Origin: Aquificaceae bacterium
GTDB taxonomy: Bacteria > Aquificota > Aquificia > Aquificales > Aquificaceae
Assembly: GCA_026981975.1 (NCBI GenBank)
Contig: JALSHV010000015.1
Span: 1-64,000 of the forward strand
Direction of reading: 5' to 3'
Length of the DNA stretch: 64,000 nucleotides
Shown here: in pieces, positions 48,223-54,694 of the stretch
Position numbering within the stretch: position 1 is the stretch's first letter
Layout of the letters: every line of letters begins with the position of its first letter
Position numbers and translations under genes: made by a program
The notes under the pieces: generated by a model
The model's database searches: none
What the model was told of the DNA's origin: nothing
What the model saw: the letters and a program-made list of their open reading frames with translations, nothing else

Positions 48223-48963
48223 ATGAGGCTGATAGCAGCTAACTGGAAAATGAACAAGGGAATTCATGAAGCTCAGGAGTATATTAGAAAACTTCTAAGT
48301 TTACTTAAAACAACAGAAGATAGGGAGATTTTGATATGTCCACCTTTTACCGCTTTGTGCGAGTTGAAAAATCTCCTAAAAGAAACACCAATCAAACTGG
48401 GTGCTCAGAACTGTTACTATAAAAAAAGCGGAGCTTTCACAGGAGAGATTTCCCCCCCTATGTTAAAAGAACTTAACTGCGAATACATTATTGTAGGGCA
48501 CTCAGAAAGAAGGCATATATTCGGTGAGGACGATGAGCTTATAAACAAAAAACTCATAGCCTGTCTTGAAGAAGGTTTAAGACCAATACTGTGTGTAGGA
48601 GAAAGGTTAGAAGAAAGATCCGCGGGAATGACCTTTAAAGTAATAGAAACCCAACTAAGGCTTGCTCTTTCAGGAATAGAGGACTATACAGACAGTATAG
48701 ATATAGCCTATGAACCAGTTTGGGCAATAGGAACAGGTGTTCCAGCAACACCCGAAGATGCTGTCAGTGTTCATCGCTTCATAAAGGATCTGATCAGGGA
48801 AATTAACCCTTCTTTGAAGGGTGATACCCGAATCCTCTACGGTGGAAGTGTTAAACCCTCAAACGCACCAGAGTTTATGAAATTTGAAGAAATAGAAGGT
48901 TTATTGGTAGGCGGTGCAAGTTTAGAGCCTGAATCCTTTGCGCAGATTGTTTATTCCTTTTAA
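48223..48963 (+). CDS. tpiA: Triosephosphate isomerase
   Basis: Interconverts dihydroxyacetone phosphate and glyceraldehyde 3-phosphate. The 246-residue TIM barrel has the AANWKMNKG lysine, the catalytic His in VGHSERR, the catalytic Glu in AYEPVWAIGTG, and the phosphate loops YGGSVKPSN and LVGGASLEP. Its last 42 bp overlap the end of the opposite-strand LptF/G-type gene. Confidence 0.97.
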   Translation: MRLIAANWKMNKGIHEAQEYIRKLLSLLKTTEDREILICPPFTALCELKNLLKETPIKLGAQNCYYKKSGAFTGEISPPMLKELNCEYIIVGHSERRHIFGEDDELINKKLIACLEEGLRPILCVGERLEERSAGMTFKVIETQLRLALSGIEDYTDSIDIAYEPVWAIGTGVPATPEDAVSVHRFIKDLIREINPSLKGDTRILYGGSVKPSNAPEFMKFEEIEGLLVGGASLEPESFAQIVYSF

Positions 48964-49995
48964 CAGATAAAAAGTTAAAAATACATAACCCACAAAGGCA
49001 TAGTAAGGAGGTAAGCCTGCTCTGTCCGCCAGCAGTTTAGGACTTATTACAACTATCCATCCGCCTATTAGATGCATTAGAAAGGAAAGCATACCTGTTC
49101 CAAGCTTTCTGAAACTGAACAGAGTTGATAGTAGTGGAATAAACACAATAAAAGGTAAAAAAGACATACCCGCTCTGTATAGGATTTCCGAAAGGTAACG
49201 ATCTGTATCAAAACCGAGCTTTGATCCTTTCAAGTAAAGACTAAAAAGAGAAGAAATACGCACATGTTCCATTTTTTCCGCAAATAGACTTACTTCCCTA
49301 AGTCCTACTTCAGTACCTAAGGAAAAATTCCTGAGCTCTTCAACAAAGTAACCTTCTCTGAAATTGTAAGCAGATCCTATATCAACGTGTATTTGATTTT
49401 CTTGCCACTTTCCTGAAAATCCTTCAATAATTTCAAGAACTCTACCCTCATTTGAAGTAACCAGCATGAACAAGTCTGTAAATCTACCGTTTAAAGTATC
49501 TAAGCTACCTACAAAGATGTAATATCTACCTTTATCGGTTTCTTTTACAAACCACAGTTTCTCCACTATCCTACCTATTTCCTGTTTCTTCTTATAAGTT
49601 TTTTCTATATACCATACATTCCTAAAAAGCTGAGGAATAATACTTTCATTCAACAAAAGAAAAATGAAAGAAAGAAGCAAAATACTACTCAACAGAGACA
49701 AGGAGAAACGGAGAGGAGATATGCCAAAGCTCTGAGCGGTAAGATCTATGTTGCGAACAAATATCCTTCTGAAAAGTATGAGAAGAGATATGTTTACCAG
49801 AAGAGAGGAAAGAACATAAAAACCGAGTGGTATTAAATTAAACACATAGCTTAAACCTATTTGCCAACTTATTACTTTAAATCCCAGCAGAAGATCCGTC
49901 ATACTGTATATAATCGTTAGTCCTACCGCAACAACACTAACAGTGATGAGAATTTTTAAATAATTAATCAATACGTATCGGTCAAAGATGTTCAT
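48922..49995 (-). CDS. LptF/LptG-type permease (YjgP/YjgQ family)
   Basis: Inner-membrane permease of the LPS export complex, 357 residues. N-terminal NIFDRYVLINYLKI and a first helix, then two more helices (about 50-70 and 95-115), a periplasmic beta-jellyroll-like domain (about 130-260, with IHVDIGSAYNFREGYF) and three C-terminal helices. This layout is that of LptF/LptG. Which of the two cannot be told; the partner gene and lptB are not in view. Points to an LPS-bearing outer membrane. Confidence 0.88.
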   Translation of the reverse strand: MNIFDRYVLINYLKILITVSVVAVGLTIIYSMTDLLLGFKVISWQIGLSYVFNLIPLGFYVLSSLLVNISLLILFRRIFVRNIDLTAQSFGISPLRFSLSLLSSILLLSFIFLLLNESIIPQLFRNVWYIEKTYKKKQEIGRIVEKLWFVKETDKGRYYIFVGSLDTLNGRFTDLFMLVTSNEGRVLEIIEGFSGKWQENQIHVDIGSAYNFREGYFVEELRNFSLGTEVGLREVSLFAEKMEHVRISSLFSLYLKGSKLGFDTDRYLSEILYRAGMSFLPFIVFIPLLSTLFSFRKLGTGMLSFLMHLIGGWIVVISPKLLADRAGLPPYYAFVGYVFLTFYLLKGINNLRKGFRL

Positions 49996-50008
49996 AATTA
50001 ATATTATG
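49993..50008. promoter_or_regulatory. Symmetric bidirectional start region (CATAATTAATATTATG)
   Basis: Read on the plus strand, CATAAT is 7 bp before the ATG at 50006; read on the minus strand, CATAAT is 7 bp before the LptF/G ATG at 49995. Each -10-like box contains the complement of the other gene's start codon. The start codons are separated by only 10 bp, so the rest of each promoter must lie inside the opposite gene. Confidence 0.5.
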
Positions 50009-50737
50009 AAGATGAAGATTATAAAGGCTTTAATACTTTTCTGCGGTATTTGTTTCTCCTTTGAAATTTACCTTTCTCCACGTTACACGCAATGGGAGGA
50101 ATTTGATACGGACGGCAGAAAACTCTTAGAAGAAAAAGGCTGGATATTAGCTCTTGGTATAAGAAAAGAGGGAAAACTTTTCAGAGGAGGTGCAGAGCTT
50201 TACGGAGGAACACTTAAATACGACGGTCAAACGCAAGCAGGAACACCTGTTCAAACTGATTCAGTATACAGTGGGTTTTCCCTATACGGAGGGGTAGGGT
50301 GGTATTTTGGAAATTCTGTTCTATTCAGTCCGAAGGTTCTTTACACCTTAGAAGGGTGGGTAAGGGACATAAAGTCAACGGCTACCGCTCTGGGTTACAG
50401 GGAAATTTGGAGTTATCATACCCTTGATTTTGAAGGAGAAGTTGTTCACAAAATGAAAATTATGGAGATGTCTATGTTCGCCACGCTGAGACTGATGCTC
50501 GGCGATGCCGTAATGAAAGCAGATTTAGAAGGAGTTCCTACTCTTTACCCCAAAAGAGGTCCAGCCTACAAGTTAGGTTGCAGATTTAGAAAAAACAGAT
50601 ACGGTGTAGAAATCGCTCACTCCTACGTTAAGTTCAACCGCTCTGATCCGCAACCCACCTTCATTCCGGGCGTATACGTTCTTCAACCAGAATCCGTAAG
50701 AAGAACCATGTCCTTAACTTTCTTTCTACGCTTTTGA
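50006..50737 (+). CDS. Probable outer-membrane beta-barrel protein
   Basis: A 243-residue exported protein. Signal peptide MKMKIIKALILFCGICFS with cleavage near FS/FE, then alternating Gly/Tyr/aromatic strands (GGAELYGGTLKY, SGFSLYGGVGWYFG, KLGCRFRKNRYGVEIAHSYVKF) and a C-terminal strand ending in Phe (MSLTFFLRF), the outer-membrane insertion signal. No specific family recognised. The ATG at 50006 is chosen rather than 49988, which would overlap the divergent gene. Its divergent partner is an LPS-export permease gene, a sensible pairing. Confidence 0.75.
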   Translation: MKMKIIKALILFCGICFSFEIYLSPRYTQWEEFDTDGRKLLEEKGWILALGIRKEGKLFRGGAELYGGTLKYDGQTQAGTPVQTDSVYSGFSLYGGVGWYFGNSVLFSPKVLYTLEGWVRDIKSTATALGYREIWSYHTLDFEGEVVHKMKIMEMSMFATLRLMLGDAVMKADLEGVPTLYPKRGPAYKLGCRFRKNRYGVEIAHSYVKFNRSDPQPTFIPGVYVLQPESVRRTMSLTFFLRF

Positions 50738-50738
50738 A

Positions 50739-52655
50739 TTATCTGGAAGTTATTTCTTCCATATAGAACAAAAAACTGAAAGGAACAGCAATTCCACTCA
50801 CATAGGCTGTTCCCGGCTTTAAAAAGGGGAGTAAATTGAATATATCTTCACGGGATACTTCAAAGAAAGGAGATACCGCTTCAAGATCGTTTCTACTTAT
50901 AAGTTTAAAGACAATACGGGTATTCAGCTGAGAAAAAACAAACTTACTTATACCGGCGGGTCTTTGAGTAATCGCCACAATACCGAGTTTAAGCTTTCTG
51001 CCCTCCATGGCAATCCGTTTTGCGCTTATGTAGGCAAGATTTTCCCTACCCGCAGGAATATCCCCTGTTCCCCTTTCAGGGACAAAATTGTGAGCTTCTT
51101 CAAGAACAACGAGCTTGTCAGATGCATCTCTTTTGGAAATCTTAAGAATTTCTTTGAGAAGAAGTCCTGCAATGTTGATAGATGTCTCCGCGATATCAGT
51201 TTCTTTAAAATCGTATATAACTATTCCCTCCTTAAAGTTTAAAGACTCCTTAAGCATTCGCACCACCTTAGACTGATTTCTAAGGGCTTCTTTTCCAAAA
51301 GAGTTTTTCAAAGATTCAAGAGTTTCAAGTAATAAGTCACCAAGAGAGCTATCTTTTACCAGAAGAACAGCTTCCTTTAGAATATCTTCAAAACTTTTTG
51401 TGTTAAATACTGTTCTGTTTAAGTCCGGTCTGAGATATCTCTTAAAAAGAGAAATAACTGTTTTTTCTTCCGTGGATCTTTCAGAAAGGATTAATCCCCC
51501 TTCCCTTATAATACGCTTCATATCCTCAGAATCTAAAGGGAACAAAACATTAGGAATAGATACTTTCCTAACATTCCTATTTCTTTTTAAGTCTTCGTAA
51601 TACTCTCCGTAAAGGTCAAAGACATATACTTTTACAGGTTCTTTTAGCTCTTTAAGTATCTTTTTAACAAAAGTGGTTTTTCCTGAACCAGTAGCACCCA
51701 CTACAGCCATATGCATGGATATTACTTTTTCCATATCAAGAAAAGCTTCAGCATTTGTTCCCTGAAGTTTACCCACGGGAACCGGAAGGCGCATGGGATA
51801 ACCTGAGTGATTTTTAAGGAGAACAGCTTTAAGGTTTTCTTCTTCTTTGAGTGTTTCCACAGGAGATCCCGCTTTCAACGGCGTAAAAGGAGTTTTAAAA
51901 AGATCTTTGCTTTCTTCGTATTCTCCTAAAACTTCAACTTTTGCTTCTTTTACTTCATAACACTCTGCCATTTTTGCAAATAAAGCTGCTGCTTTCCAGC
52001 TTTCCTCTTTTTCAGTAAAAACCCTTTTTAGAAAACCTCCTTCTGAAATAGATTCCGTTCCAAAAGCAGGATTAAAACTTCTTATATCAAAAATTCTGCA
52101 AAGGAGAAAGTTTCCTTTTGAAATGGGTATTTTTACATAGCTGTGTTCATCAAGCTCTTTTAACAGTATAACTCTTCCCGTTCTGGAAGTAATAGAGTCT
52201 ATTACAAGGGCGACTGCGTCACTTAGTTTATACGATTCCTCTTTTATAAGTTCAAAAGTTTTTTCAAGAGCGGAAATTTCCTGTATATCTTCTGTATAGA
52301 CTACCGTTTCAAAATTCCCTCCTTTCTCCAAACCAGAACGGGTTATATTTGCTGAACCTACAACAGCAAATTTACTGTCAACAATCACAAACTTTGCATG
52401 AAGTCTTTTACTGATGAAGATATCTCCTCCTTTTCTGGTTATAAGACTAAAAAAGTGCGGGTCTGTTGTGTTCATATCTTCAAAAGAAGAAGATCTGATA
52501 ACAACTTCAAGCCTGACGTTGTCCTTTAAGTCATTTAGAAGATCTTTTAGAGTGTCTCCCCGTATCCAAGCGGAACAGATGTAAACGTGACGCTCGGCTT
52601 TTGATAAGATTTCTTTCAATTTTAAAGCGATCCTTTCCTCTGTAAGAATTTCCAT
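50739..52655 (-). CDS. PLD-nuclease / HerA-type ATPase fusion protein
   Basis: A 638-residue single chain combining a nuclease and a DNA-translocase module. Residues about 1-150 are a phospholipase D-type domain with one HKD motif (LHAKFVIVDSKFAVVGSANITRSG, H near 86). Residues about 155-290 are beta-rich and may be a HAS barrel. Residues about 305-638 are a HerA/FtsK-like ATPase: Walker A GATGSGKTT (about 320-328), Walker B VVLEEAHNFVP, and the sensor stretch ITQRPAGISKFVFSQLNTRIV. HerA usually pairs with NurA for DNA end resection or with nucleases in defence; here the nuclease is fused. The ATG at 52655 is preferred over the TTG at 52673. Confidence 0.88.
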   Translation of the reverse strand: MEILTEERIALKLKEILSKAERHVYICSAWIRGDTLKDLLNDLKDNVRLEVVIRSSSFEDMNTTDPHFFSLITRKGGDIFISKRLHAKFVIVDSKFAVVGSANITRSGLEKGGNFETVVYTEDIQEISALEKTFELIKEESYKLSDAVALVIDSITSRTGRVILLKELDEHSYVKIPISKGNFLLCRIFDIRSFNPAFGTESISEGGFLKRVFTEKEESWKAAALFAKMAECYEVKEAKVEVLGEYEESKDLFKTPFTPLKAGSPVETLKEEENLKAVLLKNHSGYPMRLPVPVGKLQGTNAEAFLDMEKVISMHMAVVGATGSGKTTFVKKILKELKEPVKVYVFDLYGEYYEDLKRNRNVRKVSIPNVLFPLDSEDMKRIIREGGLILSERSTEEKTVISLFKRYLRPDLNRTVFNTKSFEDILKEAVLLVKDSSLGDLLLETLESLKNSFGKEALRNQSKVVRMLKESLNFKEGIVIYDFKETDIAETSINIAGLLLKEILKISKRDASDKLVVLEEAHNFVPERGTGDIPAGRENLAYISAKRIAMEGRKLKLGIVAITQRPAGISKFVFSQLNTRIVFKLISRNDLEAVSPFFEVSREDIFNLLPFLKPGTAYVSGIAVPFSFLFYMEEITSR

Positions 52656-52672
52656 GTATTTTTTAAGATACA
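52656..52672. promoter_or_regulatory. 17-bp divergent start region, PLD-HerA / histidine kinase
   Basis: On the minus strand TATCTT (52670-52665) is 9 bp before the ATG of the PLD-HerA gene; on the plus strand TATTTT (52657-52662) is 10 bp before the histidine kinase ATG. No ribosome binding site is visible on either side. Confidence 0.4.
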
Positions 52673-54694
52673 ATGAGATTTCTCAGAAGGAGTTTTAAAC
52701 TTAAAGTTTCCATCGCCTTCCTTGCGGTGGGACTTATACCTTATGTAGTTTTTTCGTTATTCTCTATCGTTCAAATGGATAATACCCTTAAAGAAAGAAT
52801 AGAGTATGATCTGGAAATGAACGGCGGATTTCTCATTCATGAAGTAACCGAGCAGGTTCATTTTCTTTACAACCAACTCAGGCAACTGTCAAAGCTTCAA
52901 ATAATGGAAGACGTTCTTATAGGCGACATCAACAGAAGAATTTCCGATTTCTTGACAAAGATTCAAAAGGAAATGGGATTTCTTGGTTATATTCTATGTA
53001 TTAACGAAAAAGGGAGAATTGTAGCGTCCTCTCACGAAGAACTGATAGGAAAAGATTTCAAAGCAAAGGGAAAATTTTACAAAGGAAGGGACGGAACTTT
53101 CTTAGTATTAAGATCTTCACTACAACCCTTCCCAGGCAGTGAAGTTCCCATAGGAGAGTTAGTTATTCTGTATTCTGTAGAAAACTTTGAAAAATTTCTC
53201 ATAAATACAGATTCCGCTGTCAGTTCTCTTATAAATCCAGCAATAGACGTGTATATATCTCCTTTTTACGATTCTCTACCACCTTTATGGGCTTACGGTT
53301 TTGCAGATATAGGTAAATACATGGTTTATTACCAGCGGTTTGACGATGCACTTATGGGAAGAGAATGGGTTATGCTGGTAGGAATAGATAAGAATTTTGT
53401 ATTCGCTCCTGTAAAAAAGATAACTTTAATCTTCGGTGGCTCAGCCCTCACAGGAGGTTTAGTGATTGTTTTTATATCCCTATTTATATCTTCAAGGATT
53501 CTTGCACCGGTAATGAACGTTTCAGAAGCAACAGCTTACATAATAAAAACAGGAGATTACAGCAAGCGTGTGCCGGTAAAAGGTGAAGATGAAATAGCTT
53601 TACTATCTTCTTCTTTTAATAAAATGCTTGACGAAATTCAGGAAGTTTTGAAAAAACTAAGAGAGGAAAACCTTGAAAGGATAAAGCTTTTCCGTAAACT
53701 CGTAGAGATGTTTGCTCTTATATTAGAACAAGAAGAAGAAAGCAAATTATTGGAAGTAGCTGTAAGAGAACTGAGAGCATTTCTCGGAGTTGATGTTAGC
53801 ATATACAGAACACCTCCTACTGAAGGAAGGAGTTATGAAATAAAAGCTATGGTTTTTTCAGAAGGGGAAATGAGAGAAGAAATAATAGGTTATTTGGGGT
53901 TTAACATAAAGGAAACATCACCTGAAACGGAAGATTTCTTCAAGTCCATTGTCAGAATGCTCTCTTTTCAAATAGAAAGACTTAACATGCTTAAACTGCA
54001 AAGCCATCTTAGAGAGAAAGCAGAAGCCGCTTCAAGAGCAAAGTCTATGTTCATAGCAAATATGTCTCATGAACTAAGAACTCCACTGAACGCTATCATA
54101 GGCTTTGCTCAATATCTTCAGTCCGAACTTAAATCTACATATTCGGAAATAGCTAAAAACATAGAAGTTTCTGGCAGACACCTTTTGAACATGATAAATG
54201 ACATTCTTGATCTATCAAGGATAGAAGCTGGCAAGATGAAAATTCAAAAGGAGAAGTTCAATCTTAAAAATCTATTAAATGAAGTTGAGATAATGGTAAA
54301 ACCCTTTGCGCAGGAGAAAAAACTTACCCTTGAAATAGAAAAACCTTCTGTTGAACTGGAAACCGATCCTAAGCTTTTAAAACAGATACTTATAAATCTG
54401 CTTTCAAATGGTGTAAAATATACCGAAAAAGGTAAGGTATCCTTAAAAGTAGAACAGAAAAAATTCTATATAAAATTCAGAGTAGTAGACACAGGAATAG
54501 GAATATCCCCCGAAGTGCGAGGTAAACTCTTTGAAGCTTTTGAACAGATAGAACCCTCTAAGGGAGGAACAGGATTGGGTCTTGCTCTTTCTAAAAGATT
54601 AGTAGAGCTACTCGGAGGTAGAATAGGAGTTTTTTCCGAAGGGAAAGGAAAAGGTGCGGAATTCTGGTTTACTCTTCCTCTTCAACATCACTGA
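52673..54694 (+). CDS. Membrane sensor histidine kinase
   Basis: A 673-residue two-component kinase. Helix 1 (about 11-32), an extracytoplasmic sensor domain (about 35-245, Cache-like in length, with DVYISPFYDSLPP), helix 2 (about 250-273), HAMP (about 275-330), a linker or GAF-like region (about 345-435), HisKA with the phospho-histidine in MSHELRTPLNAIIGFAQYL (about 465) and a HATPase domain (N box LSNGVKYTEKG, G1 DTGIGI, G2 GGTGLGLAL). The convergent neighbour is an HD-GYP response regulator, whose gene end overlaps by 26 bp; it is a plausible partner though not in an operon. Confidence 0.93.
   Translation: MRFLRRSFKLKVSIAFLAVGLIPYVVFSLFSIVQMDNTLKERIEYDLEMNGGFLIHEVTEQVHFLYNQLRQLSKLQIMEDVLIGDINRRISDFLTKIQKEMGFLGYILCINEKGRIVASSHEELIGKDFKAKGKFYKGRDGTFLVLRSSLQPFPGSEVPIGELVILYSVENFEKFLINTDSAVSSLINPAIDVYISPFYDSLPPLWAYGFADIGKYMVYYQRFDDALMGREWVMLVGIDKNFVFAPVKKITLIFGGSALTGGLVIVFISLFISSRILAPVMNVSEATAYIIKTGDYSKRVPVKGEDEIALLSSSFNKMLDEIQEVLKKLREENLERIKLFRKLVEMFALILEQEEESKLLEVAVRELRAFLGVDVSIYRTPPTEGRSYEIKAMVFSEGEMREEIIGYLGFNIKETSPETEDFFKSIVRMLSFQIERLNMLKLQSHLREKAEAASRAKSMFIANMSHELRTPLNAIIGFAQYLQSELKSTYSEIAKNIEVSGRHLLNMINDILDLSRIEAGKMKIQKEKFNLKNLLNEVEIMVKPFAQEKKLTLEIEKPSVELETDPKLLKQILINLLSNGVKYTEKGKVSLKVEQKKFYIKFRVVDTGIGISPEVRGKLFEAFEQIEPSKGGTGLGLALSKRLVELLGGRIGVFSEGKGKGAEFWFTLPLQHH

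Follow-up and report, generated by a model that had tools for sequence, protein, structure and literature searches.

A candidate compact divergent promoter for two envelope genes with predicted leaderless transcripts in an Aquificaceae genome

The locus and its inverted repeat

In the window (the whole stretch of DNA analysed here, 64,000 nt of the genome of a thermophilic, Aquifex-type member of the Aquificaceae), the starts of two divergent envelope genes are only 10 to 16 bp apart. By sequence inspection, CATAATTAATATTATG is located at 49993–50008. It reads CATAAT-N7-ATG on both strands, with ATGs at 49995 (minus strand) and 50006 (plus strand). Each CATAAT hexamer is separated from an ATG by 7 nt and is placed exactly 13 nt before it, and the mirror-image spacing given in a preliminary description of this DNA is correct. 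That description took the hexamers as the −10 boxes of two promoters, each box containing the start codon of the opposite gene.

The minus-strand gene (48922–49995, ATG 49995) encodes an LptF/LptG-family permease, as first described, and is called lptF below. The match to Pfam LptF_LptG (PF03739) has an E-value of 1.5e-18 and 67.4 bits, above the cut-off of 27.9. The score of 69.6 against the NCBIfam LptG equivalog is under its cut-off of 240, and therefore the protein may be either LptF or LptG. The MNIFDRY-type start is common to the relatives (other Aquificaceae). The plus-strand gene (50006–50737) was correctly described as encoding a barrel protein. The AlphaFold2 model shows a β-barrel with an N-terminal helix that fits a signal peptide (pLDDT 91.3). 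The best Foldseek match is OpcA (2vdf, E = 1.2e-8), and OpcA and omptins are the closest solved structures. No Pfam or NCBIfam family was matched, and the PHROGs search gave nothing significant (best E = 0.78). According to the model, the product is predicted with high confidence to be a 10-strand outer-membrane β-barrel with a signal peptide.

CATAATTAATATTATG forms the core of a longer inverted repeat, TTCATAAT-TAAT-ATTATGAA (49991–50010). The arms of the repeat are 8 bp, not 6 bp as first described, because both genes begin with ATGAA. The exact core is present once in 1.46 Mb of the own genome, against about 0.4 copies expected from base composition, and ATGAA is the start of 285 of 1207 genes. 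Inverted repeats of the 8/4/8 type number 81 in the own genome and about 36–58 in Markov-simulated sequence. ATT directly precedes ATG in 40 of 1207 genes; ATT-ATG on both sides is expected by chance at about 0.001 per pair, that is, about 0.2 cases among 188 divergent pairs. The repeat layout is a coincidence of a mild, not striking, degree. The composition and ATGAA counts favour the view that the repeat is simply AT-rich sequence between two ATGAA genes, with no promoter role. However, some promoter must lie near these few bases, and the 13-nt spacing is the modal one for both genes (see below). Chance alone is thus considered improbable.

A regulator might also use the repeat as its operator. 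In relatives, the core CATAATN4ATTATG is found within a longer conserved palindrome, TTARCATAATN4ATTATGYTAA, beside a NikR-like gene. At the window site, however, the TTAR/YTAA flanks are absent, and the own genome keeps a copy of the palindrome (one mismatch) beside its NikR-like gene (C7:68512). Sites resembling the repeat occur at the chance number (19, against 16–24 simulated). As the flanks differ and the counts are at chance level, the operator reading was rejected as very unlikely. The palindrome itself, TTARCATAATNNNNATTATGYTAA, is conserved beside the gene of the NikR-like RHH regulator at G000 C7:68512–68535, G007:C1:678298, G011:C3:11080, G002:C210:16420 and G003:C168:2043, and in two genomes it also adjoins a NiFe-hydrogenase small-subunit gene. 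It is probably the operator of the NikR-like regulator or of another metal or hydrogenase regulator.

Leaderless genes and the start codon of the barrel gene

Of the 1.61 Mb of the own genome, 1.46 Mb was put together from separate stretches, and 1381 genes were called by a simple script. TATAAT-like hexamers peak sharply 12–15 nt before the ATG. At a distance of 13 nt, hexamers matching TATAAT at five or more of six positions precede 65 genes, against a background of about 19 at other distances. A leaderless −10 model was fitted to the 674 genes without a Shine-Dalgarno sequence; about half of them were assigned a leaderless −10, with a modal distance of 13 nt. These features, as read from sequence, indicate that leaderless genes are common in the genome. 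They agree with an independent prediction for Aquificae, in which 20–32% of the genes are leaderless and the TA signals lie about 12 bp upstream (PMC3160421). No enrichment of a −35 element was observed among 200 confident leaderless cases of the own genome. Therefore, missing −35 boxes are no argument against the CATAAT boxes, and the −35 requirement was dropped as a test.

Both genes of the pair resemble the TA-led leaderless genes of Aquifex (Zheng et al., 2011, PMC3160421), which have the same TATAAT-like box about 12–13 nt before the start and no Shine-Dalgarno sequence. No Shine-Dalgarno sequence was found upstream of the lptF or barrel ATG, and a hexamer is located 13 nt before the lptF start and before either barrel start considered below, although the match is weak for lptF. 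What differs from the Aquifex genes is that two such genes stand head to head here; the terms 'divergent' and 'head-to-head' are absent from PMC3160421.

The probable −10 of lptF is CATAAT (50003–50008, minus strand), which overlaps ATG 50006. It is the sole credible hexamer at leaderless spacing, and no better one was found at the leaderless distance of lptF. CATAAT scores low (2.9 bits, against 7.3 bits for TATAAT), because C is rare (about 2%) at position 1 of the fitted −10 matrix. The posterior for any leaderless −10 of lptF is 0.66. CATAAT at 12–15 nt is found in 4 of 1207 genes, where about one is expected. Two of the four are lptF and the barrel gene, and the count barely exceeds background after the removal of this pair. 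The promoter reading of the two boxes is thus plausible for its modal spacing, but CATAAT is a poor −10 in this genome. In nearly all relatives lptF looks leaderless, and in most of them a −10-like hexamer, mostly TAAAAT, is present at the leaderless distance.

For the plus-strand ORF, three ATGs are present in the same frame, at 49988, 50006 and 50012. ATG 49988 was rejected (posterior 0.02). ATG 50012, which was overlooked in the preliminary description, is an equally valid start. TAATAT (49999–50004, plus strand) is located 13 nt before it and scores 4.6 bits, with a posterior of 0.86 for ATG 50012. The alternative, CATAAT (49993–49998, plus strand), is located 13 nt before ATG 50006, holds the complement of the lptF ATG and scores 2.9 bits. 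The N-termini of five genus orthologues, the closest among them, match the start column of ATG 50012, not that of 50006. Orthologues of the barrel gene in the genus have leaderless-type starts in eight of eight cases (posterior 0.59–0.98). Since TAATAT is the better −10 and the orthologue N-termini align there, ATG 50012 is most likely the barrel start, favoured over ATG 50006 by about 3:1 in this sequence-based comparison.

This preference bears directly on the reciprocal arrangement, in which CATAAT would be the −10 of both genes, with ATG 50006 as the barrel start, so that the start codon of either gene would lie within the −10 of the other. With ATG 50012, 16 bp lie between the two starts and the plus-strand −10 is free of the lptF start codon, whereas the lptF −10 still spans the unused ATG 50006. 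Its mirror-image, modal spacing of 13 nt on both sides speaks for the reciprocal arrangement; a start-codon constraint would account for the unfavourable C with which both boxes begin, and a distance of about 10 bp between divergent start sites is among the common ones known (PMC12825309). However, the arrangement needs ATG 50006, whereas ATG 50012 has the better −10 and the orthologue alignment, and the use of CATAAT as a −10 is not independently supported by the genome. We regard it as doubtful. It is a sub-case of the compact leaderless promoter proposed below, and its probability is contained in that of the promoter and is not to be added to it. A true start codon further downstream had been named in the preliminary description as incompatible with the reciprocal claim, and the preference for ATG 50012 comes close to this.

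Transcription may instead start further upstream, inside the opposite genes, with the repeat incidental. A perfect TATAAT for lptF is located within the barrel gene (50018–50023, minus strand), 28 nt before lptF, and a transcript from it would have about 15 nt of leader; for the barrel gene, TATAAT at 49909–49914 is an example. Both hexamers are perfect and score 7.3 bits. However, a leader of this kind would have no Shine-Dalgarno sequence in either gene, TATAAT shows no enrichment 24–32 nt upstream (14 cases, with 14 and 10 in the control intervals), and the orthologues of both genes have leaderless-type starts. Upstream starts are accordingly rated unlikely.

Compact divergent pairs and the partners of lptF

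The 188 divergent pairs of the own genome include none with a gap of 0–9 bp, 3 with 10–15 bp, 12 with 16–20 bp and 47 with 21–40 bp. Ten further pairs were called overlapping, most of which are probably due to misplaced starts. Both genes look leaderless in 47 pairs with a gap of 40 bp or less, and the −10s overlap in 39 of these (83%), against 24 expected from geometry, a number reached in none of 2000 simulations for that expectation if 39 is taken as the mark, although local AT-richness may contribute to the excess. As the genes were called by script, the starts of other pairs are approximate, except that three tight pairs have convincing N-termini and are secure: C12:8379/8392 (gap 12 bp, also starting CATAAT), C13:23416/23430 (gap 13 bp, CATAATAAATAATATTATG) and C15:98893/98907 (gap 13 bp). 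In 0.8 Mb of the relative G007, 26 tight leaderless pairs were found, 23 of them overlapping and none with a gap of 0–9 bp. As the own genome and G007 give the same picture, the compact divergent leaderless architecture is a habit of the genus. The description of the locus as extreme promoter compression is right in that it is extreme, but it is not unique, given the other pairs with gaps of 12 and 13 bp. With ATG 50012 as the barrel start, the divergent layout is ordinary for the genome.

Two of the compact loci show further features. At C12 8379–8392 (CATAATTTTAAATCTATG), a gap of 12 bp separates the starts of the genes of a GspE/PilB-like ATPase and a DksA-like protein. Relatives have different genes opposite the DksA-like gene (for instance, a MurG-like gene at a distance of about 20 bp), and thus partners are exchanged whereas the compact promoter habit is retained. 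Within the window, the gene pair that follows, of a HerA/PLD-domain protein and a histidine kinase, is also divergent and very closely spaced: at 52655–52673 (CATGTATTTTTTAAGATACAATG) the gap is 17 bp, and the two genes overlap if the first TTG is used.

The preliminary description proposed conservation of the 16-bp element between orthologous pairs as a check. When this was examined among the relatives compared, the two genes were found adjacent only in the window genome, and the element is in one genome only; thus, conservation cannot support the 16-mer. In 13 of the 14 genus mates with lptF, tRNA-Ser(GCT) is the divergent neighbour of this gene, and TAAAATTATA is found in the roughly 25 bp between the two. 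This sequence supplies lptF with a TAAAAT placed 16 nt upstream of its ATG, and the tRNA strand with a TATAAT-like box. The barrel gene is elsewhere in the closest relative (G006), beside the same herA-like gene, and is about 0.78 Mb from lptF in G007. In the window genome, tRNA-Ser and thiE are on another contig (C27:8177). There, at C27 8177–8302, tRNA-Ser(GCT) has another gene opposite it, and the short AT-rich region between them is new. lptF has changed its partner. Since lptF faces tRNA-Ser in genus mates and the barrel gene and tRNA-Ser are elsewhere, the ancestral two-way promoter appears to have been broken by a rearrangement, which would have split lptF from its ancestral divergent partner and brought in the barrel-herA block, and a new compact promoter would then have formed. 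The ancestral promoter was likewise a compact shared region, in which lptF had TAAAAT and the opposite strand a TATAAT-like box; the window genome differs in the partner gene and in the promoter sequence.

The proposed promoter and its meaning

The reading that we favour, with moderate confidence, is that a compact divergent promoter serves two leaderless genes. The housekeeping sigma factor would direct RNA polymerase to the promoter by the −10 boxes only, and a −35 element would not be needed. lptF would be transcribed from the minus-strand CATAAT (50008–50003), the first nucleotide being the A of ATG 49995 or one next to it. For the barrel gene, on the plus strand, TAATAT would most likely be used with a start at ATG 50012, or less likely CATAAT with a start at ATG 50006. 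The mRNAs would have no leader and would be translated from the 5′ ATG. The weakness of the lptF −10, the perfect TATAAT further upstream of lptF and the restriction of the element to one genome weigh against this promoter.

From the overlapping predicted −10s, the start sites would be 17 bp apart with ATG 50012 and 11 bp apart with ATG 50006. Bidirectional promoters are characterised by transcription both ways from the same DNA, with divergent start sites 7–25 bp apart that belong to overlapping −10s. Among their start-site distances, 18, 10 and 23 bp are common, and small deviations from these values occur (PMC12825309). Either version is therefore predicted to be in or near the known bidirectional class. 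The opposed −10s of the bidirectional bacterial promoters described by Warman, Grainger and colleagues (PMC12825309, PMC10268837) overlap in one short AT block, as predicted here. In contrast to those promoters, both transcripts are predicted to be leaderless here, with start codons in or beside the opposing −10. As both boxes share or overlap an AT block of about 16 bp, the two promoters could not be occupied simultaneously. The competition for polymerase proposed at first does not follow from this, because the basal-strength bidirectional promoters of E. coli that were tested are too weak to compete (PMC12825309). Competition is possible but is not to be assumed; it would matter only once one direction becomes strong.

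If the reciprocal arrangement were true, promoter strength and start codon would constrain each other in a 16-bp reciprocal element, and the genus-wide class of minimal divergent leaderless promoters would have its lower limit in this element. The layout of lptF and the barrel gene is an extreme case of an arrangement that the genome uses dozens of times, not a new kind. Where genes are leaderless, the promoter that divergent neighbours share can be reduced to 10–30 bp. The dozens of such pairs are a natural series on the minimal size of a two-way promoter and on the competition between its directions, and the element at 49993–50008 is one extreme example of this series.
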